Positions 3,757 through 38,883 of a stretch of DNA of 42,896 nt are shown here, one piece after another. The stretch lies in the NCBI GenBank assembly GCA_030698625.1, contig JAUYMS010000038.1, forward strand, positions 1-42,896. Direction: 5' to 3'. The DNA comes from Candidatus Omnitrophota bacterium (lineage in GTDB: Bacteria > Omnitrophota > Omnitrophia > Omnitrophales > Aquincolibacteriaceae). The position numbers and the translations under genes were made by a program. Under the pieces are notes generated by a model. It was given only the letters and a program-made list of their open reading frames with translations, was not told the DNA's origin and made no database searches. Within the stretch, counting starts at the first letter, position 1. Every line of letters begins with the position of its first letter.

Positions 3757-5685
3757 TTATACGACGTCCCACGCGGGAGCCTTGAGCTGCCGGCAAACCA
3801 CCCGGGGCTTCTGAGACCGATCTCGATACTTCAAATGGAATACAGCATAACCCCCATCTCGATATAGCGTCTCAATATGCAACCAATCAGGCACACTGTC
3901 AAGATTGAAGGAATCCCGAACGCCCTCATATGCATCCTCATAGAAGATCACGTATTGAAACCCCCTGTCATGCAAATAAGCCCATCGTTTCTCGGCCTGA
4001 AGGTGCTCCGCATGCTCCGTCTCGGAAGACGAACACTGCGCGAGGTCCGCCCGCAACCAATAGGGATAATGTGCAGTAAGGAAGACGCGCTCGCCCGGCA
4101 AGGCCTTCTGGTTCACAACGTCAAAAGCGCGGCAAATTGATACCTGAGCATCGCACTCCGGTAATAGGCCGAGCGCATGGCGAAGCGGGTCGGTGCTCCT
4201 GATTTGCCGAAGATGCGTATGCATTGTCATGGTTAGCATGAAGCCAAGGCAGAAGAGAACCGCGGTACGGAGCCACCGTGATTGGGATTTTGCCTGAAAA
4301 AGATATTCTGCGCCCGCCGCCACAGGAACGCTGAGGACGAGTAGGGTTGCGAGCAGAAATCTCGGAGCAATGGCGTACGGGCGAACAAATTTCCACAGCA
4401 TTATCCCCATTATGGCAGCCAGCGAAAGCTGAACCATGGGGCTCCGCGACCATCGTTGGGCTTTGGGAAGGAGCAAAACCAGCGGTGCGAATGCCAGCAG
4501 GAGGGGTGAAAGATTGCCTATCTGTAATTGGGATTTCCCGAATGTGAGCATAATGGGAAAGGCCCACAGGCTTGATGCCGGTAACTCCGCAGACACAGAA
4601 GTGTCTTTCACCCAAACAGAAAACCATGGCCCCACAAAGGGCGCCAAGGGCTCTCCGAATAGCCTGCTGTTCTTGAACATATGCGGAAGTAGCGGCAGCA
4701 CGACCCAAAATCCAAAAGCTAGAACCGTCCGAACGACCAAGACCAAAATGCGGCTCGCGGTCCTGGGGTTTGCATCCAGAAGGCGTCTCCATACGACTAA
4801 GATTAAAACGCTGGGAAGCAGCGTTGCCGCATAAGGGATCTTTGCCACAACGGCAAGGCCCGTAAACAGGCCAGCCAAAGGCAGCGCTGTGCTTTTTCGG
4901 CCGTCTCCCACATGAAGCCCCCAATAATAAGCGGCTATGCCCATGGCCGCGGCAAATAGGTCCACCTTCGCTACCCAAATTGAATGCGTTACGACTGTGG
5001 AGGTAATCACGATCATGAGCACGATCCATTTACCTCGACGTCCGAGACCCAAATGGGATGCAAGGGCCACGGACATGGCACCCACGGCAAGGGCCTCGGC
5101 CCAATTAAAAAGTCTTGCCGCTTGCGGGCCGTTCAGGCTCATTAAGGCCGCATAATGCAATTCGGCCTGCAGGCCTATTTGCGTAAAACTCTCAAGCCCA
5201 GTCAGCGGCACAAGCTTGTAGGACGAGGAAATCAACTTTGCTATGGCCATATAGAATACAGCGGCATCCTCTCCCGGGCGTAAGGGTTGCAGGGCCAGAA
5301 CGGCCTGATACATGAAAAGCAGGACGGTCATTCCGGCCAAAACTATCCATATCGGAGGACTCATTTCAAGACTGGAGAGGAAAGACCGATAGAGTCGCGG
5401 AATCAGGACAAGCCGCGGCAGACAGACGATTCCGAGCGCCACCACGCCCAGGGCCACAACTCCCATGATGATCTGCGGTGAAAAATGCGCGCCTAAGGCA
5501 AGCAAGAGCCACACGTTGGCCAGCAACCCCTGCCCTAAAAGAAAGGAAGTACCCCACACGCCCAAGGGAATGGCACGATCCGCGTCAGCGTCCGCAGTCA
5601 TAAAACTCCGGGCCAGCACGTAGCCAAACCCGAGACAGGCCATCACATAAAACCCCACCGCACCCGCCGTCGTGGCTAATAACAT
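3757..5685 (-). CDS. Polytopic GT-C-like membrane glycosyltransferase
   Basis: This 642-aa protein has about 11-13 membrane segments and a C-terminal soluble domain (about residues 515-642). The layout, with an early periplasmic loop carrying RPGEDAAVFYMA and a later soluble tail, resembles GT-C enzymes of the ArnT/PMT (GT39) or DUF-type group that move sugars from polyprenyl phosphate outside the membrane. I cannot name the family with certainty. The gene ends 12 nt before the WlbB-like gene starts, so it probably shares that transcript. The tail (FLTAHYPYWLRADLA; YVIFYEDAYEG) looks like the periplasmic domain of such proteins. No ribosome site is evident before the ATG. Confidence 0.65.
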   Translation of the reverse strand: MLLATTAGAVGFYVMACLGFGYVLARSFMTADADADRAIPLGVWGTSFLLGQGLLANVWLLLALGAHFSPQIIMGVVALGVVALGIVCLPRLVLIPRLYRSFLSSLEMSPPIWIVLAGMTVLLFMYQAVLALQPLRPGEDAAVFYMAIAKLISSSYKLVPLTGLESFTQIGLQAELHYAALMSLNGPQAARLFNWAEALAVGAMSVALASHLGLGRRGKWIVLMIVITSTVVTHSIWVAKVDLFAAAMGIAAYYWGLHVGDGRKSTALPLAGLFTGLAVVAKIPYAATLLPSVLILVVWRRLLDANPRTASRILVLVVRTVLAFGFWVVLPLLPHMFKNSRLFGEPLAPFVGPWFSVWVKDTSVSAELPASSLWAFPIMLTFGKSQLQIGNLSPLLLAFAPLVLLLPKAQRWSRSPMVQLSLAAIMGIMLWKFVRPYAIAPRFLLATLLVLSVPVAAGAEYLFQAKSQSRWLRTAVLFCLGFMLTMTMHTHLRQIRSTDPLRHALGLLPECDAQVSICRAFDVVNQKALPGERVFLTAHYPYWLRADLAQCSSSETEHAEHLQAEKRWAYLHDRGFQYVIFYEDAYEGVRDSFNLDSVPDWLHIETLYRDGGYAVFHLKYRDRSQKPRVVCRQLKAPAWDVV

Positions 5686-5727
5686 GCTCTTAACATTTCC
5701 CGATTCACGGATCCTGCTTTTGAAGAT

Positions 5728-5910
5728 TTAAGTACCTGAAAAAAAGGGCATTAGGAATTCCCGTACTTGATCGAGAATATAAAGGTGACCCACCTCATCC
5801 CACAGAGATCGCGTCCACATATCGCGATACGTGACGCACTCCAGGAAAAGAATGCCGAACATCCAGACGAGCATTGCACATTTAAAGATACGTTCGATCA
5901 GGGCCTTCAT
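5728..5910 (-). CDS. Small single-pass membrane protein, unknown
   Basis: A 60-aa frame starts 4 nt after the trhA stop codon. It has one hydrophobic segment at residues 11-27 (CAMLVWMFGILFLECV) followed by an amphipathic, aromatic-rich tail (WDEVGHLYILDQVREF). The tight spacing behind trhA and the membrane-protein composition favour a real gene, but there is only a weak ribosome site (GGA, 8 nt upstream) and I recognise no family. Confidence 0.4.
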   Translation of the reverse strand: MKALIERIFKCAMLVWMFGILFLECVTYRDMWTRSLWDEVGHLYILDQVREFLMPFFSGT

Positions 5911-5914
5911 TCGA

Positions 5915-6559
5915 CTATCCGGAGCTGATGTAAAACAGAAGGCCGAAGAAATGGGCGGCGCTCCCGATCATGACGAAAAGGTGCCAGATGGCGTGATGAA
6001 AGGGCAGCCTATACCAACGGTAGAATAAAGTGCCCAGGGTATAAGCCAACCCGCCGACAAGAAGCCAGACAATAAGACCCATGGGCGCTGAACGAGTCAA
6101 CGGCTTGAGGGCAATCACGACAAGCCAGCCCATAGCAATGTAGGTAAGGACCGAAAAGAACTTTAGTTTTTCTATTCTGCACGCCTCCAAAACGATTCCG
6201 ATTACGGCGATCCCCCAAATGAGCCCAAACAGAGTCCAGCCCCAAGGTCCGCGCAGCGAAACTAGGACGACCGGCGTGTAAGTGCCCGCGATAAGAAGAT
6301 AGATGGAACTATGATCCAGGATTTTAAACACACGTTTTGCGCGGTCATTGCTTAAACCGTGATAAAGCGTGGATGCAAGATAGAGAAAAATCAGGGTCGC
6401 ACCGTAAATGCTGAGGCTGACGATTCTCCAACTGTCGCCGGTGGAGGCTGCAAAGACAGTCAGAATCACGAGCGCAGCCACACTCAAAGCCGTGCCGATA
6501 CCGTGAGTGATACTATTGGCGATTTCTTCGCCCGGGGTTTGCGTTCGCTGGGGACACAT
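5915..6559 (-). CDS. trhA: Hemolysin III / TrhA family membrane protein
   Basis: The 214-aa, seven-helix protein belongs to the HlyIII (PAQR-like) family. Signature features are NSITHGIGTALS near the N-terminus, STLYHGLSN after helix 2, LDHSSIYLLIAGTYTPV, and the C-terminal HHAIWHLFVMIGSAAHFF. The conserved His and Asp residues form the presumed metal site of the PAQR fold. In Bacillus the protein acts in membrane-fluidity homeostasis; older work called homologues haemolysins. The start lacks a ribosome site, but TATAGT (6567-6572) lies 7 nt upstream, so the mRNA may be leaderless. It lies 20 bp downstream of the response regulator gene. Confidence 0.9.
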   Translation of the reverse strand: MCPQRTQTPGEEIANSITHGIGTALSVAALVILTVFAASTGDSWRIVSLSIYGATLIFLYLASTLYHGLSNDRAKRVFKILDHSSIYLLIAGTYTPVVLVSLRGPWGWTLFGLIWGIAVIGIVLEACRIEKLKFFSVLTYIAMGWLVVIALKPLTRSAPMGLIVWLLVGGLAYTLGTLFYRWYRLPFHHAIWHLFVMIGSAAHFFGLLFYISSG

Positions 6560-6566
6560 AAGGAGT

Positions 6567-6572
6567 ACTATA
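6567..6572 (-). promoter_or_regulatory. -10 box close to the trhA start
   Basis: TATAGT on the minus strand, 7 nt before the ATG of trhA. No good -35 hexamer is visible at 16-18 bp. Transcription starting 6-8 nt downstream would begin at or near the ATG. Confidence 0.35.
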
Positions 6573-6579
6573 AACGCGA

Positions 6580-6957
6580 TTAAGCGCCGACGAAAGAGTG
6601 AATTTCGCGCACGAGATTGTCCGTGTCAAAGGGCTTGCTGTACAGCGCATAATGCCTGCCTTGAACGGCGTGATCCTGCGGGTGCCCGTCGGCGAGTGCC
6701 GACATGAAAATGACGGGAATATTCTTGTCCAATCCGCCCGCGAGCAGACGATTGTAGACATCGACACCGTTGCTATTACCCAACATGATATCCAAAAGGA
6801 TCAGGTCAGGTCTCTCACTGAATGCTTTTTCGCGAAACTCGTCGGCATTATTCGCCGAAATGACTCGCAGATTGGTGTCCCGCAGGTGATCGGCAAGCAG
6901 TTCGCAGATGGCCCATTCGTCGTCTACAATAAGTACGGTTTTCCGGTTCGCGGTCAT
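6580..6957 (-). CDS. Receiver-only response regulator
   Basis: This single REC domain (125 aa) has no output domain. VDDE at residues 11-14 gives the acidic pocket, Asp56 in LILLDIML is the phosphoacceptor, Ser/Thr is in FMSAL and the conserved Lys is in YSKPFD. Such proteins act as phospho-switches through protein contacts, CheY/Spo0F style; no cognate kinase is in the window. The ATG at 6957 is favoured over one six codons upstream because REC domains start just here and TATGTT lies 6 nt before it. It lies 77 bp downstream of the exonuclease gene and 20 bp upstream of trhA. Confidence 0.88.
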   Translation of the reverse strand: MTANRKTVLIVDDEWAICELLADHLRDTNLRVISANNADEFREKAFSERPDLILLDIMLGNSNGVDVYNRLLAGGLDKNIPVIFMSALADGHPQDHAVQGRHYALYSKPFDTDNLVREIHSFVGA

Positions 6958-7034
6958 ACAAGTAACATAACACACATTGCGGGTCGGCAGCGGGTTTGCA
7001 AAAACTAAGCCGTAACTCTTTTGATACTAAAGGA

Positions 7035-8306
7035 TTAAGTGTGTAACGAAGTGTTTTTTTGCTTCCGGAGCAACCGGTCGCGGCGGGAATGTAGATCTCG
7101 GGTCTCTCCGGCGGCTTTTGACGGAAAGAGACGTCTCTCGCGACCCAGATGGCTGAGGGCGGCCTCGGTAACAGCCAGCGCCTCAGAAATAGATTTTTTC
7201 CGGTGTTCGTAGTACTTCGCGAGTTCCTCATAGGGAAAGAGGTCGAACATTCTTCGCTTCTCGATCAGATCTTTCCACAACCGGACGGCATCTTCGTAGC
7301 GGCCGGTGGATTTCAAGAGGACCGAATAAAATTTCGCCAGGGACGGGTCCCCTCCTTTCGGCCCGGCTGTCGCCAGCGAAGCCTCCACCCACGCGAGCGC
7401 CTTCTCGTGATCTTTGAGATGGTAAAAGATCTTCCCGATCGAATGTTTCTCGGCCACCTCCCCGTCGGAGAACGCGGCGATGTCGTTCAATTTTACGGCC
7501 AGGGCGATCAGACTTAAAAGGTCGGTGCGGTTGTGACTAAAGATCGGTGCGACGAGTTCCGCGTTCCGGCTCGTGAGGAAATCGAAATAAGTCTGAGGAA
7601 TGGCCGCGCTGGGGATATCGTGATCGCGTTCAATGCCGAAAAGCAAACGCTCCAAGGTGCCCAGGCGGCAATCCGCGAACATATCTTTCCAGAGGCGTCT
7701 GGAAGCGTGCAGGAGATCCAAGTGCACGATCTTCTGAAACGGACTCGGCATGCGGTGCATACGAAACCGCGCCCGCAACAATTCTTCATCGTAAGACTTC
7801 CCGTTGAAACTGACCATGTGTTTCGCGCCTCCAATGAGCTCTCCGAGTATTTCCAGAAGCAGCGACTCTCCGGAATAGTCTTCGATAAAAAGCTGATGCA
7901 GAATAAAATGCGCGTCGCGATAGATCACGCACCCGACCATAAAAGCAACCGTCCCGCTGCCGCCGGCCAAACCCGTGGTCTCCGTGTCGAAAAAGAAGGT
8001 CTCTTCTGGCGTGAGCGTCCGCGCCCGCTCATCTTTGGTGACCACCGACAACCCGTGATAATTCCCACAGCGCCACGGCCCCAATTCCTGGGAACCGTGT
8101 TTTGCCGAAACCGGAATTTTTTCCTCGACACAAAAGACGCGAACGCCGGCGCTTTCAACCCACCGGCCCGCAACCAAACTTTCAAGGGGACCCGTTTCTG
8201 CGCGGAAACTCGGGAGGGGATCCGCTTCAGCCGAACTCTGAAGCCGGTTTAGGCGGTCGGAGAGAGAGAGTCTTTTCTTATGACGAAAGGGGTTCGAGTA
8301 GGGCAT
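7035..8306 (-). CDS. mrfB: MrfB/YprB-like DEDD exonuclease with TPR-like tail
   Basis: This is a ribonuclease H-like 3'-5' exonuclease of 423 aa. The DEDD acidic residues are visible: Asp107 and Glu109 in FFFDTETTGL, Asp173 in FNGKSYDEELL and Asp262 in HNRTDLLSL, with His258 nearby. Residues about 285-400 form TPR-like helices. This is the architecture of Bacillus subtilis YprB (MrfB), which with the helicase YprA (MrfA) excises mitomycin C damage independently of UvrABC. The start overlaps the 3' end of the helicase gene by 29 bp, so the two are co-transcribed and probably co-translated, as in Bacillus. Finding the pair in a diderm is consistent with its wide but patchy spread. Confidence 0.85.
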   Translation of the reverse strand: MPYSNPFRHKKRLSLSDRLNRLQSSAEADPLPSFRAETGPLESLVAGRWVESAGVRVFCVEEKIPVSAKHGSQELGPWRCGNYHGLSVVTKDERARTLTPEETFFFDTETTGLAGGSGTVAFMVGCVIYRDAHFILHQLFIEDYSGESLLLEILGELIGGAKHMVSFNGKSYDEELLRARFRMHRMPSPFQKIVHLDLLHASRRLWKDMFADCRLGTLERLLFGIERDHDIPSAAIPQTYFDFLTSRNAELVAPIFSHNRTDLLSLIALAVKLNDIAAFSDGEVAEKHSIGKIFYHLKDHEKALAWVEASLATAGPKGGDPSLAKFYSVLLKSTGRYEDAVRLWKDLIEKRRMFDLFPYEELAKYYEHRKKSISEALAVTEAALSHLGRERRLFPSKAAGETRDLHSRRDRLLRKQKNTSLHT

Positions 8307-10662
8307 GGAGAATTCCGAGCGAAAGACGCTTGCTTTCCGAGCCCGGGCGCAGGATGGGGCCGACGCATGACGGGCATCCCTCCTGACACGGACAAGCGGC
8401 GATCAGATTTCTTGCTTCCTTAAGGAGATCGCCGTGATGCTCGAAGAGAACCGGGCTGAATCCCACGCCTCCGGGGTAGTTTTCATAGATGAACAGAGTC
8501 GGTTCGAATAACTCGACGCCGTCGAGATCCACTTGCACACCGTCTTCAGCGACAGCCTCGGTATAGCTGCCTCGATGGCCGTAGGACTGCGTCATAAACC
8601 ACTTGGCTTGGCGGTCGCCCACCGAGCGGTTGATATCGCGAAAATCGCACATGAGGAGCAGCGTCGCCATATGATGCAACGCATAACTCGTGCCGAGCAA
8701 ACCGTCAACGATCTCGGACCGCGTCAGATTCAAATCCTTGAGAACCGTACCCGCAATCGTGAACCAGTAGGCCGTCGTGTGCATCTCCTGATCGGGCAGG
8801 TCAATTTTTCCGTAACCGAGATTCTCCAGCGTATAGAACTTGATCTTTTTGAAACCGGAGATATGCGTCAGCACATGCACTTCTCCGTGTTCGGTGAGGG
8901 ATGAAGCATCGTCGCGCGAGGCAAAGATATCGAGAATCCGCACATTGGTGCTGTCGATCGCCTCGGTATAATAAATCCCGTCGGCCTTGCGGATAAAGGC
9001 CTTCTTCTCGGCAAAGTCGAGACGGTCCACAATGTAGGGGGTCTGCTCCAGCATATAGATCGCATCTTTATGCACCATAAACGGCGCGCTCGGCAGGTCA
9101 ACCTCGGCCACGGGTTTGTTTCCCTGATCCATATCGAAGATAACGACATTATCGGGATTCGCGCTCCTCAAGCTCACCTGATCGGCGGGATAGGCATCAT
9201 TCATCCAATGCCACTTGTCCCCCGAATGCCGCAGGACTTTTTCGTTTTCCAGATACTGCAGAAGTTCGATGAGATTTTCCTTCCCGAAGGATTCCCCGTC
9301 GCAAAAAGGCAGCTCGAAGGCAGCACACTTGATGTGGCTCATAAGAATAGAGAGATTGTCGGAATTAATCAGTCCGTACTCCGGCGACGCCCCGAAGAAA
9401 TAAGTCGGGTGATTGATGATGTATTGGTCGAGAGGATTGCTGCGTGCAACAAGGACAGCGACCGACTCGGTCGTCTTGCGGCCGGCCCGCCCCGCTTGCT
9501 GCCAGGTGCTGGCCACCGTGCCCGGGTAACCGGCTAAAACGGAAACGTCCAACCCGCCGATATCGATTCCAAGCTCGAGTGCGTTAGTGCTGACCACACC
9601 GCGGACCTCGCCATCGCGCAGTCCCTTTTCGATTTCACGCCGCGTATTCGGAAGATAGCCGCCGCGATAGCCGCGTATCCTGCCTTTGTCCTGAATCTTC
9701 TTTTCGAAATCGTCTTTGAGATACTTTGACAGCACCTCCACATTCAGGCGCGAGGTCGTAAAAGAGATGGTCTGCAAATCCCGCGTGATTGCCTTTTTGG
9801 CCACGGATCGCGCCACCTGCAATGAGTTGGCCCGGATACCGAGATTTTTATCGACAATCGGGGGGTTCACAAAAAAGAAAAACTTCCGGCCCCGCGGTGC
9901 ACCCGATTCGTTGATCAACTCGACATCCTGTTCAATTAAGTCCCGTGCGAGTTCTTCCGGATTGGCAATCGTCGCACTCGACAACAGAAAGAGCGGCTTG
10001 GCGCGGTAAAACGAGGCGATGCGCTTCAAGCGCCTGATAAGATTTGCCAAATGGCTGCCGAAAACGCCCCGGTAGTAATGCATTTCATCAATCACGACAA
10101 ACCGTAAATTTTCGAAAAACTCGATCCACTTTGTATGATGGGGCAAAATGCCCTGATGCAGCATATCGGGGTTCGACACCACGATGTGGGCATGGCCGCG
10201 AATGGCCTTCCGCGCATCCTGCGGCGTATCTCCGTCATAAGTGAAGCAGCGGATATCGGTTTCCAGCTGCGACGAAAGCGAATGAATTTCATCCATCTGA
10301 TCCTGGGCAAGGGCCTTGGTCGGAAAAAGATACAGGGCACGCGTGGAAGACTGCTTGAGAATGCTGTCAATGACAGGCAGATTGTAGCAAAGGGTCTTGC
10401 CCGATGCCGTCGGCGTTACGGTGACGATATTTTTCCCTGACAAAACCGCATCGACAGCGGCTCGTTGATGCGTGTACAGTTTTTCGATGCCGCGACCGCG
10501 CAGTGCGGCGACGAGAGCCGGATCCATTGCGTCGGGATAGTCAGCATACTCGGCGGGCTGTCGCTCGAGAAGCCGGAAGGCCGTTTTGCGGGGATCGTTG
10601 TGTAGGTCGCGAACCAAATCACCTACTTTTTCACTTTGGAAGACGGCTGTGGGGGTATTCAT
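8278..10662 (-). CDS. mrfA: MrfA/YprA-like DEAD/DEAH helicase with DUF1998
   Basis: This SF2 helicase is 794 aa. Motifs run in order: Q-motif region YTHQRAA (64-70), Walker A TASGKT (85-90), DEMH box (192-195), SSAT motif III, then VVSTNALELGIDIGGLD and QQAGRAGR (motif VI) in the second RecA domain. The C-terminal DUF1998 domain ends with a four-cysteine metal site, CPCQEGCPSC, near residue 760. This matches MrfA/YprA, an ATP-dependent 3'-5' helicase of the mitomycin repair pair. The partner nuclease overlaps its 3' end. The ATG has no ribosome site; TAACAT lies 6 nt upstream, 17 bp from TTGATT, which suggests a leaderless mRNA. Confidence 0.92.
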   Translation of the reverse strand: MNTPTAVFQSEKVGDLVRDLHNDPRKTAFRLLERQPAEYADYPDAMDPALVAALRGRGIEKLYTHQRAAVDAVLSGKNIVTVTPTASGKTLCYNLPVIDSILKQSSTRALYLFPTKALAQDQMDEIHSLSSQLETDIRCFTYDGDTPQDARKAIRGHAHIVVSNPDMLHQGILPHHTKWIEFFENLRFVVIDEMHYYRGVFGSHLANLIRRLKRIASFYRAKPLFLLSSATIANPEELARDLIEQDVELINESGAPRGRKFFFFVNPPIVDKNLGIRANSLQVARSVAKKAITRDLQTISFTTSRLNVEVLSKYLKDDFEKKIQDKGRIRGYRGGYLPNTRREIEKGLRDGEVRGVVSTNALELGIDIGGLDVSVLAGYPGTVASTWQQAGRAGRKTTESVAVLVARSNPLDQYIINHPTYFFGASPEYGLINSDNLSILMSHIKCAAFELPFCDGESFGKENLIELLQYLENEKVLRHSGDKWHWMNDAYPADQVSLRSANPDNVVIFDMDQGNKPVAEVDLPSAPFMVHKDAIYMLEQTPYIVDRLDFAEKKAFIRKADGIYYTEAIDSTNVRILDIFASRDDASSLTEHGEVHVLTHISGFKKIKFYTLENLGYGKIDLPDQEMHTTAYWFTIAGTVLKDLNLTRSEIVDGLLGTSYALHHMATLLLMCDFRDINRSVGDRQAKWFMTQSYGHRGSYTEAVAEDGVQVDLDGVELFEPTLFIYENYPGGVGFSPVLFEHHGDLLKEARNLIAACPCQEGCPSCVGPILRPGSESKRLSLGILHALLEPLSS

Positions 10663-28351: not shown

Positions 28352-30709
28352 TTAAAACTCTAGCCTCATGCCGCCGCCCCAGCCATACTCCGAGTGCCAT
28401 TTTCCAATCAGTGAAATATGCTTACTCACAAGATACGTCGCACCGGCTTCGCCTTCCCATTGCGTGTGTGTATCGTATTCGGTCTCTCCAAAAATCGAAA
28501 GACGCGGCGTCAGTTCAAGATTTTTGCTCAGAGCAATTCTACCCCCACCTTCATGATCAACCCATAGACGGCTTTCAATATTAAGCGGAAGCCGGTAATC
28601 AAACCCAATGATCCCGCGAGCTTCCTCCAAATCATCCTCCGGCCCGAGCGCTGCAATCATATCGGAGCCCGCGAATACAGAAAGAAAGCGATTCACATAG
28701 TAACTCCCCAATGGGATCGCCTCAAGCTCACTACCCTCGACGTTTTGCCAGCCGTATTCCCAGTTCACTGAAAGCATATATCGGCTATTTGCAAAGCTGA
28801 CCACGCCCTCACTCATATGGCTCATCCCATCCGCATGGCCGTAAAAATACCACATGCTTTTATATAGTTCGGAACGAAGGGCTTGGACTTCCGGACTCGG
28901 GGTGAAATCCTCATATTCAACTGTCCGAGCCATGCCGTCTTCCATGTGATAGAGAAGATGACAATGGAAAAACCACTCCCCTTTTTCATTTGCATTAAAT
29001 TCAATAATCGTTGTTGTCATCGGCTCTACATCCACCGTGTGCTTTAAGGGGGAATAATCACCCTGTTCATTAAGAACCCTGAAAAAATGACCGTGTAAAT
29101 GCATCGGATGATGCATCATGGTGCGGTTGATCATAATAAAACGGACAATCTCACCTTCTTTGATGCGGATCACATCTTCGGAAGAAAGTGTTTTGCCGTT
29201 AATCTTCCAAATGAAACGCTCCATATCCCCGTCCAGAGTCAGCCGTATATCCCGGCGGGGTTTATCTTCATCAAAACTTGTTTTATGAGTTGCACGCAAA
29301 TCCCTGTATGGAACACCAGGCAGTTCTTCACTCATCCCTGGCATGGCAGGATTTTTAAAACGAGAGACATCAGACGCAAAAGGCATAAAATTAAAACCAT
29401 AACTGTTTGCAACGTACTCTTTTGCTTCAGGCTCGGGATAGGTTTTACCGGCAGCATATGCATGCTTTTTCATCGGCATGTCCATCATCTTATGCCCCTC
29501 ATGCCCTGTCAGGCCACCCATTTTGTCACCCGCCGTCTTCATCGAAGCCATACCTGCATGCTCGGACATATCACCCATACCGTGCATGCCGGGAGAATCT
29601 AAAAGGCCCCGATGAACCGCGCGGCTCGACATTCCCATCGTACCGCCCGGAGTGAGTGCAAAAATTCGGGAAAACGACATATCCCCCATAAATGAGTAGA
29701 GGTTTGGTTTAGGTATTCTGGGGGCCGCGTGCTTTTCTCCCGAACCCAGCCAAACACTGCTGAACGCTGACCCGTCGTGCGCAGTCGCTCTCAATTCATA
29801 CGCTCCCTCAGCAGGAAGCGTGATAAGAACATCATACGTTTCTGCGACACCCACCAGAAAACGTTTTTTAGAAAGAGGTTCCACCGGCTGACCATCCGCT
29901 GAAATAATCGTCATTTCACCACCCGCAAATTCCACATAAAAAAAAGTCGATGCAGCGCCATTAATAATACGTAATCTGATTTTTTCGCGGCCTTTTGCCT
30001 CTAATGTTGAGACCGGCTTTCCATTGGCCCAAAAGCGGTCGTAAGCAACATCTGAAAGATCCATCACAGGCATACGTAAGAGTTCTCGTTTGAAATAATC
30101 GTCTATCATTCCGAGCCGCAAGGCGCCAATAAGGCTTTGCGCTGTTCCTTTTTGAATGGAGAACCATTCACTACCGCGTTTTAGTGTATGAAGCACGTTG
30201 TGAGGATTTTGGTCCGCCCAATCCGACAGGACAATGACGTGGTCCCGGTCGTATTTTTCCTCACCTTCCTTCGGGTGAATCACGATAGCCCCATAAACGC
30301 CTCTCTGCTCCTGAAGCATCGTATGCGAATGGTACCAGTACGTGCCGCTTTGTCTTATTGGAAATTCATAGTCGAATGTTTCATCCGGTTGAATAGGCAG
30401 GAAACTAATAAAAGGGACGCCATCCATATTCGGAGGCACCAGCATGCCATGCCAGTGAATCGAGGTCTCAACTTTCATTTCATTTTTAACGTGAATACGC
30501 GCAATATCCCCTTCCTTAAAATAAAGCACAGGGCCAGGAATCCCTGAGTTAAGGGTCATCGCTCTGACATTGCTGCCCGTAAAATTAACTTCTTCTTCCG
30601 CGATGGTTAAATGATATTCCGTAACGGTCGATTCTTTTGCGAGCGCTGGCGCGACAAGCAGGCAAGCAAAGAAACCTACGTAAGCAAATAATGGGAAAAG
30701 ACGATTCAT
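28352..30709 (-). CDS. copA: Multicopper oxidase (CopA type) fused to a CopB-like outer-membrane barrel
   Basis: The 785-aa precursor has a signal peptide (residues 1-24, MNRLFPLF to PALAK). Three cupredoxin domains carry all four copper motifs: HWHG (85-88), YHSH (126-129), HPMHLHGH (534-541) and HCHLLYHM (582-589). A Met/His-rich loop at about 360-415 (GMHGMGDMSEHAGM) is the usual CopA copper-loading segment. From about 640 to the end the sequence is a beta-barrel-like domain of about eight strands with CopB-like phrases (SYYVNRFLSVFAGSD, NIESRLWVDHEGGGR, WHSEYGWGGG) and a final Phe, as in BAM substrates. Plain CopA is about 600 aa. It would oxidise periplasmic Cu(I). The annotated start is the ATG before the signal peptide; a TTG 22 codons upstream is unlikely. 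Confidence 0.88.
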   Translation of the reverse strand: MNRLFPLFAYVGFFACLLVAPALAKESTVTEYHLTIAEEEVNFTGSNVRAMTLNSGIPGPVLYFKEGDIARIHVKNEMKVETSIHWHGMLVPPNMDGVPFISFLPIQPDETFDYEFPIRQSGTYWYHSHTMLQEQRGVYGAIVIHPKEGEEKYDRDHVIVLSDWADQNPHNVLHTLKRGSEWFSIQKGTAQSLIGALRLGMIDDYFKRELLRMPVMDLSDVAYDRFWANGKPVSTLEAKGREKIRLRIINGAASTFFYVEFAGGEMTIISADGQPVEPLSKKRFLVGVAETYDVLITLPAEGAYELRATAHDGSAFSSVWLGSGEKHAAPRIPKPNLYSFMGDMSFSRIFALTPGGTMGMSSRAVHRGLLDSPGMHGMGDMSEHAGMASMKTAGDKMGGLTGHEGHKMMDMPMKKHAYAAGKTYPEPEAKEYVANSYGFNFMPFASDVSRFKNPAMPGMSEELPGVPYRDLRATHKTSFDEDKPRRDIRLTLDGDMERFIWKINGKTLSSEDVIRIKEGEIVRFIMINRTMMHHPMHLHGHFFRVLNEQGDYSPLKHTVDVEPMTTTIIEFNANEKGEWFFHCHLLYHMEDGMARTVEYEDFTPSPEVQALRSELYKSMWYFYGHADGMSHMSEGVVSFANSRYMLSVNWEYGWQNVEGSELEAIPLGSYYVNRFLSVFAGSDMIAALGPEDDLEEARGIIGFDYRLPLNIESRLWVDHEGGGRIALSKNLELTPRLSIFGETEYDTHTQWEGEAGATYLVSKHISLIGKWHSEYGWGGGMRLEF

Positions 30710-30867
30710 AGTTTTAATCTTAGCGAGTTCATGATCACCGGCGATGGCATCGCAATGTTCCTGAAGAAATTGCAATTAACCGGATCTTCGGTCACTCCAC
30801 TCGGCCGCGTGGCATTTCCCCAGCCGGGAGAGTGCCTGCCAATAATCACCCGCCGTATCTTTCGCGG

Positions 30868-31167
30868 TTAATGAGCATGCCCCTCTGGCTCAGGGGCTTC
30901 ATGATCGTCGCCCCCATGCGGAGCCGTCTTTGCCGCTTGAAGGCCCGTCCATACCGTCACCGCTGCAGACAAGGTTCCAAAATAAAGAGCCCATTGGCCC
31001 GCCGCTAAAAGCTCCTCTTTCTTAAAAATACTGCCCAAAAAATAAAAGGCAGTTGAAGTCAGCAGAAGCGCTATCGGAAAATGAACAAAGAGCGGATGAA
31101 TGTTGATAAGTTCATCCAGACCCATGAGTCCCCATTGCACGTTCAATAAAAGTGTCATACTTGACAT
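30868..31167 (-). CDS. Short DUF2231 membrane protein with His-rich tail
   Basis: The 99-aa protein has the DUF2231 start (LDELINIHPLFVHFPIALLL), then two more hydrophobic segments (ELLAAGQWALYFGTLSAAV). It ends in GGDDHEAPEPEGHAH, a metal-binding-like tail. Usual family members are 140-200 aa with four helices, so this one looks like a reduced form. GGAGG lies 9 nt before the ATG, and the gene starts 17 bp after the cusA stop. The place in the operon and the His tail point to metal handling, but the family function is not established. Confidence 0.75.
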   Translation of the reverse strand: MSSMTLLLNVQWGLMGLDELINIHPLFVHFPIALLLTSTAFYFLGSIFKKEELLAAGQWALYFGTLSAAVTVWTGLQAAKTAPHGGDDHEAPEPEGHAH

Positions 31168-31184: not shown

Positions 31185-34100
31185 TTAAGTTCCCGCGCCG
31201 TCATCATGCGCTGCAAATCGCTCATCATGAACTCCGTGTTTTAGTTTCCATTCCATGACGGCGCAATAAAGTACGGGTACGATAAAAACCGTGATTAAAA
31301 CAAGCGTCATACCGCCAAAGGAAGGAATCGCCATCGGAACCATCACATCGGCACCGCGCCCCGTTGAAGTTAAGACCGGGATCAGGGCTAAAATGGTTGT
31401 GGAAACGGTCATTAAACAGGGACGTATTCGCCTGCTCGCTGCAGCTACTGTCGCCTGTCTTGCTTCCTGTATCGTTTTAATTTCGCTCCGATTGAAAGTT
31501 TGATCCAGATAGGTGGCCATAATGACGCCGTCGTCTGTCGCAATACCAAACAGCGCAAGAAAGCCGACCCAAACGGCAACACTAAGATTGATGGGATGGA
31601 TTTGAAAAAGGTCCCGCATGTAAACTCCGAACACATAGAAATCAAAAAACCAGGACTGCCCATAAAGCCAAAGCATGAGGAATCCCCCGGCCCAGGCAAC
31701 CAGCACGCCGGAAAACACCAGGCACGTTGTCACCACCGATTTAAACTGAAAGTACAAAATGAGGAATATGGCGAAGAGCGCAAGAGGCAGGACGATCACC
31801 ATTCTCTTGGTGCTGCGCACTTGATTCTCATAACTTCCGGCAAAGGTATAACTCACCCCCGCAGGCAAGTCGAACTCACCGCTTTTGATTTTTCCTTTAA
31901 GATATCTCTGGGCTTCCTCAACCACATCCACTTCCGCTTTGCCGGCCTTCATATCAAAAAGAACATAGCTGATTAAAAAGGTATCTTCACTTTTAATCGC
32001 CTGAGGACCGCGAAGATAGTTAATTGCGGCAAGCTGCTTCATGGGAATCTGGGCGCCGCTCGGTGAGGGCACAAGGATATCTTCCAAAGACTCGATCGTG
32101 TCTCGAAGCTCCCGCAAGTATCGAACACGGACGGGGTATCGCTCACGGCCTTCTACCGTCGTTGTGATTTTTTTACCTCCGATCGCAATTTCAATCACAT
32201 CCTGAACATCACGAATACGAATGCCATAGCGGGCGATCGCTTCCCTGTCAATATCGATTTCCAGATAGGGCTTGCCGACCACGCGGTCTGCGATTACGGC
32301 CGATGCTTCGACGGAGGGAACCTCTTTGAGAAACTTTTCAATCTGAAGCCCTACCTGCTCGATGGTTTCAAGATCAGGGCCTTTAACCTTGACGCCCATA
32401 GGAGCCCGCATCCCGCTTTGAAGCATGACGATGCGAGCGGCAATCGGCTGAAGTTTCGGCGCAGACGTTGTTCCCGGAATTTCCGTTGCGTTTATAATTT
32501 CCCGCCAAATATCATCTGAGCTCCTGATGTGATCCCGCCATTGCCGGTAAGGACGCCCCCGCTTATTTTCGATGAGATCACCGCCCGGGGTTCTGAGGAA
32601 TTCCTTTTTCCAGCGATCGTATTTAAAACGCCTGCGATGCCCGTTATCGTCCAGGATATATTCCGGCTTATAATTAATGGTTGTTTCAATCATCGAAACC
32701 GGAGCAGGGTCCAGGGGGCTGTCCGCACGCCCGAGCTTGCCCACCACAGAATCGATTTCAGGAATGCCCCGAATGGCCCTATCCTGTTTTTGCAGGACAT
32801 CAAGCGCTTCTCCGATGGAGGCATGCGGCATGGTTGTCGGCATAAAGAGAAATGAGCCTTCATCGAGAGCGGGCATAAATTCTTTACCGAGACCCGGAAA
32901 GGTTCTTCCGACCCAGGAGACAGGCGGATTATTTCTTATAAACCCGGGAATCACGCCAAAGACTTTATCAAACCCAAGCCAAATGGTGAGACCTAAAATG
33001 ATCACGACGAGCGGCATCATTAAAAACGTCTTCTTATGTTCAAGGCACCATCGCAAAAGCGGGGTGTAGTTGCTTTGAAACAGATGAAAAAACCAAAGCA
33101 GACCCCCGATGAGCAATCCGACGAAGACGAAATTAAGAAGCATTCCTTTGTCCGGTCCAAGCGGCAGCCATTGGCGCGTCAGCGTGAAGGTAATCGCCAA
33201 TACCGCTAACCCGTTGAGGGCCGCAGGTATTTTAGGCTTCCATTTCTCAGGGACGTGATCTTCAAAGGCCCGGAGCAGGCCGAATAATGCGACCGCCAGG
33301 CCCACCCAAACCGAAAACTTCAAAAAAAGAAAGAGGCCGAACGCCATCACGGCCCACCCGGTAAGCCGTCTCACCTTCAGGCTTGTTTCCCGGCGTTTAA
33401 ATAGCCAGTGAGCAGCGGGCGGGATAATCGTAAGCGCCACGATTACCGAGGCTATCAATGCAAATGTTTTTGTGAAGGCTAAAGGTTTAAACAGTTTTCC
33501 CTCAGCCGCCTCCATCGTAAAGACCGGCAGAAAGCTTACAACGGTTGTTGCGACGGCCGTAAGCACGGCACTTCCGACTTCTGCGGCCGCCCGGAAAATG
33601 ACTTCCTTTCTATCTTCTTCGGGCTTGGCTTGAGCAAGATGCCTGAGAATATTTTCCGTAATCACGATGCCCATATCCACCATCGTGCCGATTGCAATCG
33701 CAATCCCCGAAAGCGCCACAATATTGGCATCCACGCCGAAAATTCTCATCGCGATAAAACACATCAAGACGGCCAGGGGCAGCAGTCCTGAGATTAGAAG
33801 CGAACTGGCAAGATGCATGACCGAGACAATCACGACAATAATGGTGACAAGAATTTCCTGCTCTAAGGCATCATTGAGTGTGCCCAGGGTTTCATAAATA
33901 AGGCCGGTGCGGTCATAAAAGGGCACGACTGTGACTTGACTGACGGTCCCGTCCTCAAGCGTTTTCTTAGGCAAACCGTCTTTAATTTCTTCAATCTTGG
34001 CCTTGATGTTTTTAATCGTCGCCAAGGGATTATCCCCATACCGGACAACAACGACGCCCCCGACAACCTCGCTCCCCTCCTTGTCCAATGCCCCCCGGCG

Positions 34101-34997
34101 AAGCGCCGGCCCCAGGCTGACGTTGGCCACGTCTTTGATAAAAATAGGCGTATCTTTGTATGTTTTGACAACACTCATTTCAAGATCTTTGAGCTCTTCA
34201 ATAAAACCAAGCCCTCGAATCACATATTCAACGCGATTGACTTCTATGGTGCGGGCACCCACATCAATATTGGCCATTTGAACGGCGTGAAAGACTTCCT
34301 GAAGCGAAACCCCGTAGGCCCGCATGGAGTCGGGGTCAACATCGACTTGATATTCCTGGATAAATCCGCCGATTGAGGCGACTTCGCTGACACCCTTTGC
34401 GGCAAGGAGAGCGTAGCGCACATGCCAGTCTTGAACCGACCTTAACTCATGCGGGTCCCAGCCGCCCGTCGTTTTTCCATTTTTATCCTGCCCTTCAAGG
34501 GTGTACCAAAATATTTGCCCGAGAGGTGTTGCATCGGGACCCAGCGCAGGCCGAACACCTTCGGGAAGTGTCCCCGCCGGAAGGCTGCTCAGCTTTTCTA
34601 AAACACGTGAACGCGACCAATAGAAATCAACCCCCTCTTCAAAAATAATATAAATAGAAGAGAAACCGAACATGCTGTAACTGCGTACGGTCTTCACTCC
34701 CGGCACACCCAAAAGCGAAACCGTCAGGGGGTAAGAGATTTGGTCTTCGACATCCTGCGGGGAGCGGCCCATCCAATCGGTAAAGACAATCTGTTGATTC
34801 TCACCGATATCCGGGATGGCATCGGTCGGCACGGGGTCACGGGGTAATCCGCCGGCATGCCAGTCAAAGGGCGCAACCAGAACCCCCCAGGCAATGAAAA
34901 ATAGAACGAAGAGAGTCACCACCAATTTATTATCTAAACAAAACCGGATGGTCGCGGCGATAGGGCCGCGCGACTCTTTGTCTCCCTTAGTGGACAT
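31185..34997 (-). CDS. cusA: CusA-type heavy-metal efflux RND pump
   Basis: This 1270-aa inner-membrane proton antiporter exports Cu(I)/Ag(I). The proton-relay motif GIAIAIGTMVDMG lies in TM4, and the three copper-binding methionines match the CusA triad: Met719 (FMPTTMP), Met769 (SMIETT) and Met858 (RIVMLQSG). It is about 220 residues longer than E. coli CusA. One insert of about 100 residues between TM6 and the second periplasmic domain carries about four hydrophobic segments, and another of about 40 residues lies between the second and third methionines. The ATG overlaps the cusB stop by 11 bp; a longer start at 35021 adds only MHHAGDPP. Confidence 0.93.
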   Translation of the reverse strand: MSTKGDKESRGPIAATIRFCLDNKLVVTLFVLFFIAWGVLVAPFDWHAGGLPRDPVPTDAIPDIGENQQIVFTDWMGRSPQDVEDQISYPLTVSLLGVPGVKTVRSYSMFGFSSIYIIFEEGVDFYWSRSRVLEKLSSLPAGTLPEGVRPALGPDATPLGQIFWYTLEGQDKNGKTTGGWDPHELRSVQDWHVRYALLAAKGVSEVASIGGFIQEYQVDVDPDSMRAYGVSLQEVFHAVQMANIDVGARTIEVNRVEYVIRGLGFIEELKDLEMSVVKTYKDTPIFIKDVANVSLGPALRRGALDKEGSEVVGGVVVVRYGDNPLATIKNIKAKIEEIKDGLPKKTLEDGTVSQVTVVPFYDRTGLIYETLGTLNDALEQEILVTIIVVIVSVMHLASSLLISGLLPLAVLMCFIAMRIFGVDANIVALSGIAIAIGTMVDMGIVITENILRHLAQAKPEEDRKEVIFRAAAEVGSAVLTAVATTVVSFLPVFTMEAAEGKLFKPLAFTKTFALIASVIVALTIIPPAAHWLFKRRETSLKVRRLTGWAVMAFGLFLFLKFSVWVGLAVALFGLLRAFEDHVPEKWKPKIPAALNGLAVLAITFTLTRQWLPLGPDKGMLLNFVFVGLLIGGLLWFFHLFQSNYTPLLRWCLEHKKTFLMMPLVVIILGLTIWLGFDKVFGVIPGFIRNNPPVSWVGRTFPGLGKEFMPALDEGSFLFMPTTMPHASIGEALDVLQKQDRAIRGIPEIDSVVGKLGRADSPLDPAPVSMIETTINYKPEYILDDNGHRRRFKYDRWKKEFLRTPGGDLIENKRGRPYRQWRDHIRSSDDIWREIINATEIPGTTSAPKLQPIAARIVMLQSGMRAPMGVKVKGPDLETIEQVGLQIEKFLKEVPSVEASAVIADRVVGKPYLEIDIDREAIARYGIRIRDVQDVIEIAIGGKKITTTVEGRERYPVRVRYLRELRDTIESLEDILVPSPSGAQIPMKQLAAINYLRGPQAIKSEDTFLISYVLFDMKAGKAEVDVVEEAQRYLKGKIKSGEFDLPAGVSYTFAGSYENQVRSTKRMVIVLPLALFAIFLILYFQFKSVVTTCLVFSGVLVAWAGGFLMLWLYGQSWFFDFYVFGVYMRDLFQIHPINLSVAVWVGFLALFGIATDDGVIMATYLDQTFNRSEIKTIQEARQATVAAASRRIRPCLMTVSTTILALIPVLTSTGRGADVMVPMAIPSFGGMTLVLITVFIVPVLYCAVMEWKLKHGVHDERFAAHDDGAGT

Positions 34998-36990
34998 GGG
35001 CGGATCCCCGGCGTGATGCAAACTTATCCTGCAGCGTTCCGCATGTTTGCATCTCTTTTCCGAAAAAGGGGTTCATGATTTGATCATTCGACTGCAGCCA
35101 AGCCGCTCCTTTGGCCGCCGAAGCCATGGGACAAAATACTTTATAATGGTCGCCCGCGCCGACATGTCCGAATGTCCTCTCGAGGCTGATAAGCTCTCCG
35201 CTCATATCTTCAAGAACATCGGTCCTGATGTCTTCTATCGTTTGGGCTTCAAGTCCCAACACGATGCTGTTGTTTATCCTCTGATCGAGGTCCATCCATT
35301 TCGCGTGAAGCTGATCTTCAAGCAGGTTCATGTCAACACCGCCAAAGGCTTCCTTTATCGCTCCGAGCGCCGCTTTTGCTTTTTCAAAATCGTCCATCGC
35401 AAGCGCTGTTTGATACTCAAAGTAAGCCTCGTAGACAGGGCTTAATTGTTCGAGGAATTCTTCAGGGGCCATTTCCTGGTCCGACTGTTTAGCATCACGG
35501 CTTCCGTCCATTTTAGACATGTCGTGTCCGCCGCCGCCCGCTCCGCCCTCGGGGTTCATCATGCTCGGCTTGGCTTGAATCTGAAGTGCGCTGTCAATTT
35601 TGAAATTTCCGTTGACGACAACCCGTTCACCTTCGGCCAATCCTGACTTTACAAGGTAATGATTTCCGGCCCTCGGACCCAACACAATCTCCCGGCCTTC
35701 AAACGTGGGTTTGGAAGCCTGCTGGTTTTGAACATAAACCACGGCTCGTTTTCCGGTCTTTAGAACGGCTGATGCCGGAATCACAATCGGGGCTTCGCCT
35801 TCATCAATCTTGATGTACCCCATTTTTTCTGTGGGAACCAACGGCATCTCACAAATCGGACAAGCCCCTGACTCCTCTTGAATGATTTCAGGATGCATGG
35901 GGCACATCCATTTCCCCTCCAAGTCGGGCGCCATAACCCGGCCGAGTCCGGCAACCTGGGCTCGCACAATTGAGCGGACAAACATGCCCGGCTTTAACTG
36001 GCCCGCTTCATTTTTAACATTGACGCGGACTTTCACGGTACGCGTCGTTTCATCAAGGATAGGCGCGATGAATGAAATTCTGCCGTGAAATATCTCTCCG
36101 GGATAGGCTTCGGCCTCGAATTCCACGTCCTGTCCATACCGCAACCACTCCAAATCTTTTTCATAAGCGTCGAGCTTGACCCACACCTCACTTAAATCCA
36201 CAATCGAGTAAATGCGCGATCCCGTTTGAACGTAAGTCCCTTCCTGGACCTCCCGGTTAACGACAATCCCCGTCGCCGTCGCATAGATGGTCATGTGGTC
36301 ACTCGGGACCTTTTGCTTTTCAAGCTCGGCGATCTGCTCATCCGTCACCCCGAGAAGCTTTAACTTCTCTCTTGAGTTTTTGATGGTGTCCTGCGAAGTG
36401 GATTTGATGATATCCAGATGACTCGCCTTAACGTTTTCTGCGCCCTCAAGCGATTGTAAATATTCCTCCTGCGCCGCCAAAAGTTCCGGGCTGTAAAGAT
36501 AGGCCAGGTGATCGCCCTTCCTGACAGGCACACCGGTTTGGTCGATATAGAGCCGGTCAATCCTTCCGCCGGCCCACGCCGTGATGTAAGCGATTTTGGT
36601 CTCATCGTATTCTACTTTTCCGACCATTCGGATTTCAGTCGACACAAACTTTCTCTCAACTTCGGCTGTTTGAATCTCAGCTAACTTTGCGGCGTCCGGA
36701 GACATCACAAGGCGCCTCACAGACGGCATGCCTTCGCCGTCATGGCTCGCAAGCGGAATCAGGGCCATACCGCACAAAGGGCACTTGCCGGGCTTTGGTA
36801 ACTGAATGTGCGGATGCATGGCGCAGGTCCAAATCTTGGGCTGCTTCTCAGATCCGTGAGCGTGCTCGGATGAGCTCTTCGGAGAATTTCTTGGACCCTG
36901 TAATATGCTTGAGGCAAGCCATCCCGTGCCCAGCGCAATCATCACGAGAATGACAACGGCTCGCCTGCGGTTTTTAGAATTGTTATCCAT
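34987..36990 (-). CDS. cusB: CusB-type periplasmic adaptor with two heavy-metal-binding domains
   Basis: The 667-aa membrane-fusion protein links CusA to the outer-membrane channel. After an N-terminal membrane anchor (11-30) comes one YHS-like heavy-metal domain (WTCAMHPHIQ...CPLCGM, 54-75). The barrel and lipoyl domains follow, interrupted at 361-386 by a second copy (WMCPMHPEII...CPICEM). A glycine-rich linker leads to a C-terminal DUF3347-type domain (513-655) with FCPMA and MQTCG cysteines. Plain CusB is about 400 aa. GAGG precedes the ATG, and the gene begins 4 nt after the cusC stop. The extra domains suggest strong metal capture before hand-over to the pump. Confidence 0.92.
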   Translation of the reverse strand: MDNNSKNRRRAVVILVMIALGTGWLASSILQGPRNSPKSSSEHAHGSEKQPKIWTCAMHPHIQLPKPGKCPLCGMALIPLASHDGEGMPSVRRLVMSPDAAKLAEIQTAEVERKFVSTEIRMVGKVEYDETKIAYITAWAGGRIDRLYIDQTGVPVRKGDHLAYLYSPELLAAQEEYLQSLEGAENVKASHLDIIKSTSQDTIKNSREKLKLLGVTDEQIAELEKQKVPSDHMTIYATATGIVVNREVQEGTYVQTGSRIYSIVDLSEVWVKLDAYEKDLEWLRYGQDVEFEAEAYPGEIFHGRISFIAPILDETTRTVKVRVNVKNEAGQLKPGMFVRSIVRAQVAGLGRVMAPDLEGKWMCPMHPEIIQEESGACPICEMPLVPTEKMGYIKIDEGEAPIVIPASAVLKTGKRAVVYVQNQQASKPTFEGREIVLGPRAGNHYLVKSGLAEGERVVVNGNFKIDSALQIQAKPSMMNPEGGAGGGGHDMSKMDGSRDAKQSDQEMAPEEFLEQLSPVYEAYFEYQTALAMDDFEKAKAALGAIKEAFGGVDMNLLEDQLHAKWMDLDQRINNSIVLGLEAQTIEDIRTDVLEDMSGELISLERTFGHVGAGDHYKVFCPMASAAKGAAWLQSNDQIMNPFFGKEMQTCGTLQDKFASRRGSAHVH

Positions 36991-36994
36991 AGGT

Positions 36995-38347
36995 TTATCC
37001 TCGCAATGATTCGCCGACCATCATCTCAAGCTCCGCGAGACGCTGCTCATAGTCGCGGATGGCTTTGTAATAGGACAGCTGAAAATTAAGAAGCGTTCTC
37101 TGACTATCAATAAGGTTCAAGAAATCGACTCTACCGCCCGAATACGCTGTTTCTGACGCATTCAACGACTGCTCTGCTTTAGGAATAAGCGCGTTACGAT
37201 AGAGATTAATCTGCCTTTCCGCATTTTCGATTTGGAAGTAGACCATTTTTATTTTGGCCGACAAATTATTCTCAAGCTGCTCATGCTCTGACTCTGCCGA
37301 TTCCCTCAGCGCCTTCGCCTCATCGACCTGACTCTTTTGCTTTCCATACCACAACGGGACATTGACCTTAAACATGACGGATGCTGCATCCCGTCCGTTG
37401 TCGGGAACGTTTACGGGTCCGTTCCCGATACTAATATAGTCAAACGAGACGTTGACGTCGGGAAGATAATCAAGGCGCGCAAGCCACACCTTCTTTTTTG
37501 TCTCCTCAATGCGCTGTGCGGCCCCTTCCAGATCCGGATTATTGCCGTGAAACTTTTCATACACCAACCGCTCGTCCAAGGGTTTGACCTCATGATCGAT
37601 TTCTTCGGGCCATCCTATAGACATTTCCACGTCACGATTTAAGACCGCGTTCAATCGTGCCGTGATGGGCTTCCGATAGTCATTGAGCGTTAAGATGTCG
37701 TTTTCCAGTTTTCCAAGCTCGACTTGAGCCTTCAGAAGATCCTGGTTACTCGCAATGCCTGATTTGAATTGTGATTGGGCAACGCCTTCGAAACGTTTCA
37801 AGAATTCGCTGTTTTTTTCCGTCACTAATATATTTTTGTACAGAAACCAATACTCGTAGTAGGCATCTTTGAGCTCATAGAAATACTGCAGTTTAATCAT
37901 TTGATATTCGGCGTATTTTTGCCGCGACATCGCGACGGCTTCTTTGCCCTGAATATAAAGTTTGCCCGGGAATGGAAGGTGCTGGCTGACGGAATAAGCA
38001 TCCTCCTGCGGCCCGAGCCGTGTTTCGACATGCTCGATGCCCAATTTAAAAGACACCTGCGGGTCCTCCAATGATGTCGACTGTTTCACGTCGTGCACAG
38101 ACGCTTTCCACCGGTAAAACGCCGCTCTTAGGGATGCGTTCTTGAGCGATCCGTAGCGGAGCGCTTCATCAAGACTCATCGCCTCTGTAAGCTCATCGAC
38201 GGCAGTGTCTTGATAGGCTTTATGTGTTGCCTTGAGCTCTCTTTTCTCTTCCCGGGAAACGCCTGCTGTCACGGCCGGACTCATAGATAGAATCATGAGT
38301 CCGCTTAACAGCCCTGATATTGTCCACCGTTGAAATTTGTTTGGCAC
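36995..38347 (-). CDS. cusC: TolC-family outer-membrane efflux channel (CusC type)
   Basis: The 450-aa protein has a signal peptide (about residues 1-28, ending AVTAG) and two OEP repeats forming the beta-barrel and alpha-helical tunnel, with the usual signatures SLDEALRYGSLKNASL, LRESAESEHEQLENNL and YSGGRVDFLNLIDSQRTLL. There is no lipobox cysteine, unlike E. coli CusC, so it is probably not lipidated. The start is GTG, with GGAGG 5 nt upstream. It precedes cusB by 4 nt and completes the tripartite pump. Confidence 0.9.
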   Translation of the reverse strand: MPNKFQRWTISGLLSGLMILSMSPAVTAGVSREEKRELKATHKAYQDTAVDELTEAMSLDEALRYGSLKNASLRAAFYRWKASVHDVKQSTSLEDPQVSFKLGIEHVETRLGPQEDAYSVSQHLPFPGKLYIQGKEAVAMSRQKYAEYQMIKLQYFYELKDAYYEYWFLYKNILVTEKNSEFLKRFEGVAQSQFKSGIASNQDLLKAQVELGKLENDILTLNDYRKPITARLNAVLNRDVEMSIGWPEEIDHEVKPLDERLVYEKFHGNNPDLEGAAQRIEETKKKVWLARLDYLPDVNVSFDYISIGNGPVNVPDNGRDAASVMFKVNVPLWYGKQKSQVDEAKALRESAESEHEQLENNLSAKIKMVYFQIENAERQINLYRNALIPKAEQSLNASETAYSGGRVDFLNLIDSQRTLLNFQLSYYKAIRDYEQRLAELEMMVGESLRG

Positions 38348-38427: not shown

Positions 38428-38844
38428 CTAGATTAAAAGGGACTGAACGGCGAGATAGATCGGGGTATCGTAAAAAGGCACACCATGGGCGCGCTCTAAG
38501 TGAAACGTCGGAATTTCCGGCAAAAAAGAACCGGGCGCAATAAACCTTAGCGCACCGGCTTGGGAACCATAGGGGGTAAGCCTTGAAAATTGACCTTGTG
38601 TAAGACTCGACACTTGAATACTCGGCGGGAAGGGGGCCCGGCTCTCCACCTGACAGCCCGAGCAACATTCATCTTCTACTTTTTTACTTTGAGCTTCCTC
38701 GAAACCGTGGCAATCCATATTTTCGGAAGTCTTGTGCGCTGACATCTCCATTGCAGCTGCATACGCACAACCGCAATCCAAGGCGCCGACGGCGACCCAG
38801 GCAACGGCGAAGGCTAAGATCGAGGAAAGGACCCGCTTCTTCAT
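38428..38844 (-). CDS. Small secreted Cys/His-rich protein at the head of the cus operon
   Basis: The 138-aa protein has a signal peptide (MKKRVLSSILAFAVAWVAVG, cleavage near AYA-A at residue 29-30). Cysteine and histidine motifs follow: DCGCAYA, MSAHKT, MDCHGF and DECCSGC. The C-terminal half is hydrophobic and proline-rich with no clear fold. The position directly before cusCBA and the soft-metal ligands suggest a periplasmic copper or silver chaperone or sensor-like protein, though no known family (such as CusF, which uses Met and Trp) fits. Other starts lie 6 and 13 codons upstream. Confidence 0.65.
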   Translation of the reverse strand: MKKRVLSSILAFAVAWVAVGALDCGCAYAAAMEMSAHKTSENMDCHGFEEAQSKKVEDECCSGCQVESRAPFPPSIQVSSLTQGQFSRLTPYGSQAGALRFIAPGSFLPEIPTFHLERAHGVPFYDTPIYLAVQSLLI

Positions 38845-38853
38845 AACACGTAA

Positions 38854-38883
38854 AGAGTACATCACCTTCGGGGCCCGTGTCAA
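38854..38883 (-). promoter_or_regulatory. Possible promoter of the metal-resistance operon
   Basis: TTGACA (38878-38883), an 18-bp spacer, then TACTCT (38854-38859), 9 nt before the ATG of the Cys-rich protein gene. The -35 is perfect, the -10 weak. The -35 overlaps the stop codon of the EVE protein gene. No CueR- or CusR-type operator is recognisable. Confidence 0.35.

Follow-up and report, generated by a model that had tools for sequence, protein, structure and literature searches.

The DNA analyzed here, a contig of 42,896 nucleotides from an Omnitrophota genome (hereafter, the window), contains a minus-strand gene that poses two questions. Does it encode a CopA-type multicopper oxidase and a CopB-type outer-membrane barrel as a single protein and, if so, where would such a protein act and what would it do with copper?

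One gene for a copper oxidase and a C-terminal barrel

The open reading frame starts with an ATG at position 30709, runs to position 28352 on the minus strand, and encodes 785 residues ending in WGGGMRLEF (Table 1). Starting instead from an upstream TTG at 30775 would lengthen the protein by 22 residues; the ATG was preferred, as it yields a normal signal peptide. The first-pass annotation, which gave no strand, had read oxidase and tail as one frame, and this reading is correct. Independent assemblies and finished plasmids show the same unbroken frame, which excludes chance or a missed stop codon. The window gene is therefore confirmed to encode a one-piece protein comprising a copper oxidase and a C-terminal barrel.

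Table 1. Features of the fused gene and of the genes upstream of it in the window.
Feature	Position	Strand	Evidence
Fused CopA-type multicopper oxidase/CopB(PcoB)-type barrel gene, 785 aa	28352..30709, stop codon included	-	ORF, Pfam, TIGR01480, motifs, AlphaFold2
Sec-type signal peptide, about residues 1-24 (MNRLF...LAKE), no twin arginine	30638..30709	-	Sequence; cleavage site inferred by eye
Three cupredoxin domains, residues 26-599	28913..30634	-	PF07732, PF00394, PF07731; TIGR01480
Met/His-rich segment, residues 380-420, predicted disordered	29450..29572	-	pLDDT under 50
Linker, residues 600-620, one short helix 606-616	28850..28912	-	AlphaFold2 model
C-terminal 12-strand outer-membrane barrel (predicted), residues 621-785	28355..28849	-	Two models, structural search, PF05275 in relatives
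DUF2231 small membrane protein, directly upstream of the fused gene	30868..31167	-	Pfam
CusA-type RND copper efflux pump	31185..35021	-	PF00873
CusB-type adaptor with heavy-metal-binding domains	34987..36990	-	PF16576, PF19335, PF11827
CusC/TolC-type outer-membrane channel	36995..38347	-	PF02321

The three Pfam cupredoxin families score strongly on the window protein, while the NCBIfam CopA model TIGR01480 reaches 451.9 bits, slightly under its cut-off of 478.95. All four CopA-type copper motifs noted in the first-pass annotation are present (HWHG at residues 85-88, WYHSH at 125-129, HHPMHLHGH at 533-541, and HCHLLYHMEDGM at 582-593), and their copper ligands are invariant in an alignment of 77 relatives (HWHG, HSH, HHPMHLHGH, and HCHLLYH...M). 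The T1 and T2/T3 copper ligands of the oxidase are thus complete, and a Met/His-rich loop is also found. The presence of three cupredoxin domains together with the four copper-ligand motifs supports the assignment of the window oxidase to the CopA/PcoA type, as judged from domains and motifs. CueO and other TIGR01480-type Cu(I) oxidases share the three cupredoxin domains, the Met-rich segment, and the T1 and T2/T3 sites; unlike the window protein, however, they are soluble periplasmic enzymes that are exported by the Tat pathway and carry no barrel.

Kinship of the tail to CopB and PcoB

The first-pass annotation had proposed a tail of about 145 residues (640-785) with barrel-like strands. Its barrel-like character was upheld, but the domain is longer, with strand 1 beginning at residue 621 and a total length of about 165 residues. 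An AlphaFold2 model of the full-length protein, computed with a 77-row alignment (pLDDT 90.1, pTM 0.89), contains exactly twelve strands between residues 621 and 784, and a model of the tail alone (pLDDT 94.1) has the same twelve strands. Structure prediction thus yields a confident 12-strand barrel, neither globular nor disordered. The region from residue 600 to 785 is 31-53% identical to its counterparts in relatives. Hydrophobic and polar positions alternate along it, three glycines (G702, G778, and G780) are invariant, and the last residue is aromatic in about 95% of the aligned rows, which together form the usual signature of an outer-membrane protein.

PcoB itself forms a barrel of 12 strands that conducts Cu(II) (PMC9210255). 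When the tail model was compared with solved structures using Foldseek, E. coli PcoB (PDB: 7PGE) was the first match (E=3.4e-6, TM about 0.55) and outranked every other barrel in the list; the predicted tail therefore has the 12-strand fold of 7PGE. The sequence evidence is more remote. The CopB profile PF05275 gave no match to the window protein even when E values of up to 10 were allowed, and Pfam returned nothing acceptable in its tail; the expected profile match is accordingly missing for the window protein itself, but is found in the tails of 19 of the 77 relatives, with a best E value of 2.9e-6. At E<1e-3 a CopB profile matched 12 of 77 tails and none of 1540 shuffled tails. Conversely, a profile built from the tails detected four stand-alone CopB proteins (E values of 2e-5 to 3e-7). 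Alignment-to-alignment comparison of the tails with eight CopB proteins gave a weak match (probability 45, E=2e-4), and a search of PDB sequences with the tail profile missed PcoB, returning designed barrels and one chance match and nothing else. A weak Pfam match of the tail to TamB, below its cut-off, was set aside and ascribed to generic amphipathic beta-strands. Since CopB profiles miss the window protein, the link to CopB runs through its relatives and through structure. The twelve modeled strands, the top structural match to PcoB, and the PF05275 matches in relatives bear out the CopB-type label given in the first pass. Taken together, these data indicate that the window tail is a diverged and shortened CopB/PcoB barrel.

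Distribution, origin, and genomic setting of the fusion

The same two domains occur in the same order, oxidase then barrel, in PcoA-PcoB of the E. coli pco system and CopA-CopB of the Pseudomonas cop system, which also share the copper motifs, the 12-strand barrel, and the copper-resistance context with the window fusion. In those systems they are two proteins, and PcoA is usually exported folded through Tat, whereas the window encodes one chain predicted to be Sec-exported. PcoB also starts with a disordered stretch at its N-terminus and has longer loops than the window barrel of about 165 residues; no separate CopB was found in the window's genome. The first-pass statement that CopA and CopB are separate in known systems is nevertheless too strong: separation holds for the classical systems, but a 2012 paper notes, in one sentence and from genomic evidence, that five Legionella species have PcoA and PcoB fused (Hernandez-Montes et al., PMC3548706), a fusion of the same kind. 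Beyond this mention, we found no description of a wide fused clade in the open-access literature.

A scan of 84,980 species genomes returned at least 580 related stretches, the best 80 of which align over their full length, including the tail, except at contig ends. As the ranking of these 80 favors full-length matches, a separate check was made in the phylum to which Halodesulfovibrio belongs. Of 247 genomes, 11 contained a close oxidase, with the tail in all 11, while remoter oxidases were tailless. Surveying homologues, as the first-pass annotation had suggested, therefore shows that every relative of the same oxidase clade has the tail wherever the contig extends that far. Judged by record titles and taxonomy labels, which for metagenomes may be wrong in single cases, the fused clade spans at least ten phyla, including Thermodesulfobacteriota, Verrucomicrobiota, Nitrospirota, Nitrospinota, Acidobacteriota, Bacteroidota, Ignavibacteriota, Elusimicrobiota, Omnitrophota, Armatimonadota, and Fusobacteriota. 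Complete plasmids carry fused genes as well, both in Bacteroidota (Hymenobacter, Pontibacter, Spirosoma, Bernardetia, Flavobacterium, and Ornithobacterium) and in Fusobacteriota (Ilyobacter), where these genes are annotated as 'multicopper oxidase domain-containing protein' with no mention of the barrel. Among 40 other fusion-bearing genomes, a separate CopB above cut-off was found in one, where it adjoins a separate CopA. Fusion of this kind thus has precedent and marks a widespread clade; it is no peculiarity of the window genome. In one Verrucomicrobiaceae genome (locus L079), two fused oxidase-barrel genes that differ from each other stand in tandem, at 5370-7415 and 7809-10259.

To trace the origin of the fusion, we built a maximum-likelihood tree of 66 oxidase domains with the tail left out. 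The 49 fused proteins fall on one side of a single branch (support 99), with classical PcoA/CopA as their sister clade (support 100); the rooting is moderately secure, as the tree search was quick and some of the outgroup branches are long. Within the window's own phylum, the tail was found in only 3 of 285 genomes, and the oxidase-barrel gene with most of its operon has a G+C content of 47-52%, against 54-56% in the flanks. Both observations fit horizontal acquisition.

The predicted export route sets the fused proteins apart from most unfused ones. PcoA and CueO are Tat substrates (PMC7558416). The Tat signal of the CopA/PcoA family is absent from the window protein, whose signal is Sec-type, and no twin-arginine motif was found in any of 100 fused proteins, as compared with 10 of 14 rows scored as unfused. 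The other four comprise two truncated fused genes (L078 and L092), a sequence cut at its start (L096), and an Acinetobacter CopA (L100, 298-2181) that is unfused yet genuinely lacks a Tat motif, an exception to the rule. An outer-membrane barrel must reach the BAM machinery unfolded; a fused protein is therefore expected to use Sec, and the Tat counts agree with this. A BamA gene is present in the window's genome.

In the window, the genes for CusC, CusB, CusA, and the DUF2231 protein all lie upstream of the fused gene in the same direction, and no promoter-like site was found in the 158-base gap between the fused gene and the DUF2231 gene. Given this arrangement, the fused gene is probably the last of a cusCBA copper-efflux operon. 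The CusB-type adaptor consists of three parts, carrying a DUF3347 domain at its C-terminus in addition to two HMBD stretches. The gene heading the operon (38428-38883) encodes a small Cys/His protein with a signal peptide and the motifs NMDCHGF and ECCSGC; this protein has no Pfam match and possibly binds copper. No copper P-type ATPase above the family cut-off was found in the window's genome (95% complete), and the cus pump together with the fusion may be its main copper defence. Across 39 large fused loci, CusA and CusC genes are close by in only 6 and a Cu-ATPase in 15; the cus operon is thus no universal partner. DUF2231 genes also lie near fused genes on Hymenobacter and Pontibacter plasmids (L121, 3736-4599; L123, 2282-2944), a closeness in unrelated bacteria that suggests a copper-linked role for DUF2231.

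Predicted arrangement at the outer membrane and competing explanations

We propose that the window protein is probably a Cu(I) oxidase fixed, on the periplasmic side, to a PcoB-like barrel of its own and working beside CusCBA, a reading that draws on sequence features and structural models. The chain would cross the inner membrane unfolded via Sec, and its C-terminal domain, with a BAM-type aromatic residue at the end, would be inserted into the outer membrane by BAM. The outer-membrane location is well supported by prediction. The oxidase would fold in the periplasm and stay next to the periplasmic opening of the barrel: a barrel with an even number of strands has both ends in the periplasm, and the linker of about 20 residues is too short to cross the pore. 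By analogy with known oxidases, Cu(I) oxidation would then occur on the periplasmic side of the outer membrane, with O2 used to convert Cu(I) to the less toxic Cu(II). At a minimum, the barrel would serve as an anchor for the enzyme, and it may also let Cu(II) through in the manner of PcoB; the fusion would act beside the Cu(I)-expelling CusCBA system, which is apparently encoded in the same operon. In Caulobacter, PcoB stabilises PcoA (PMC12509749).

Conduction of Cu(II) through the window barrel is the least certain of these steps, and less certain than anchoring, since the barrel is shorter than PcoB and its loops are trimmed. A serious rival, and one we consider quite possible, is that the barrel serves as an anchor only, keeping the oxidase at the outer membrane and conducting nothing, while copper exits through CusCBA. 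The shortened loops and the encoding of CusCBA in the same apparent operon would fit this explanation, as would the pore residues in part: PcoB D97, which is needed for copper binding, has no aligned counterpart in the window tail, and E207 aligns with a serine (S728). However, E744, E712, and E634 of the window tail are the counterparts of PcoB E223, E187, and N115; these acidic interior positions are conserved across the fused clade, and PcoB, not some generic anchor barrel, is the nearest match of the tail. The alignment of PcoB E130 is ambiguous by two residues. Import of copper through the barrel, with the oxidase handling incoming metal for acquisition or for its own loading, seems improbable. 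PcoB expression increases copper uptake and the PcoB pore is electronegative on the outside (PMC9210255), but the genes neighboring the fusion encode an efflux pump, and PcoB of Caulobacter has been described as an efflux protein (PMC12509749).

Less likely still is an autotransporter-like protein, in which the 12-strand barrel would carry the oxidase out to the cell surface to oxidise metals or organic compounds outside the cell. The order of an N-terminal passenger, a helix, and a C-terminal 12-strand barrel does resemble the autotransporter layout, and the NalP translocator occurs in the Foldseek list; it ranks only 24th (E=4e-3), behind PcoB, and the tail is CopB-related. The linker helix, at 11 residues, is too short to span the barrel, and a folded three-domain oxidase would not be expected to fit through a 12-strand pore. 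We therefore rejected a type V autotransporter on linker length and homology. An assembly or frameshift error that merged separate copA and copB genes, which are adjacent and in the same order in Pseudomonadota, has a negligible probability: dozens of independent genomes, as well as complete plasmids, carry the same fusion, and this explanation was rejected.

The tethered Cu(I) oxidase at its own barrel, our preferred reading, bears on a wider dispute over the role of PcoB/CopB, which has been assigned to import, to export, or to stabilising PcoA, and over whether it cooperates physically with PcoA (PMC9210255, PMC12509749). A widespread fusion of apparently single origin is strong comparative evidence that PcoA and PcoB act as a unit. 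It ties the two together across many phyla and would keep oxidase and barrel at a 1:1 ratio and in a set place on the periplasmic side of the outer membrane. A single chain also allows the two to be tested for a common function, with direct measurement of Cu(I) oxidation coupled to movement of Cu(II). More tentatively, the fusion may be the main form of Pco outside Pseudomonadota, an oxidise-and-expel unit in which the oxidase passes Cu(II) directly to the barrel; it may have arisen once, exchanged Tat for Sec to allow BAM assembly, and spread horizontally through many phyla.

A redox domain likewise precedes an outer-membrane barrel in the porin-cytochrome proteins of the Cyc2 type (PMC5566968); their haem domain is unrelated and serves iron oxidation, so that the likeness is one of analogy only. 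The database label borne by the fused proteins misses their membrane half. Lac_CB10, a 'CopA-laccase' of Chitinophaga with 728 residues, shows laccase activity as a recombinant protein (PMC10298561, PMC11237711) and extends about 200 residues beyond its last copper motif, like the fused Bacteroidota proteins. Its authors describe no barrel, and its membership in the fused clade, judged from length, is only a lead. Laccase prospecting may unknowingly pick outer-membrane proteins.
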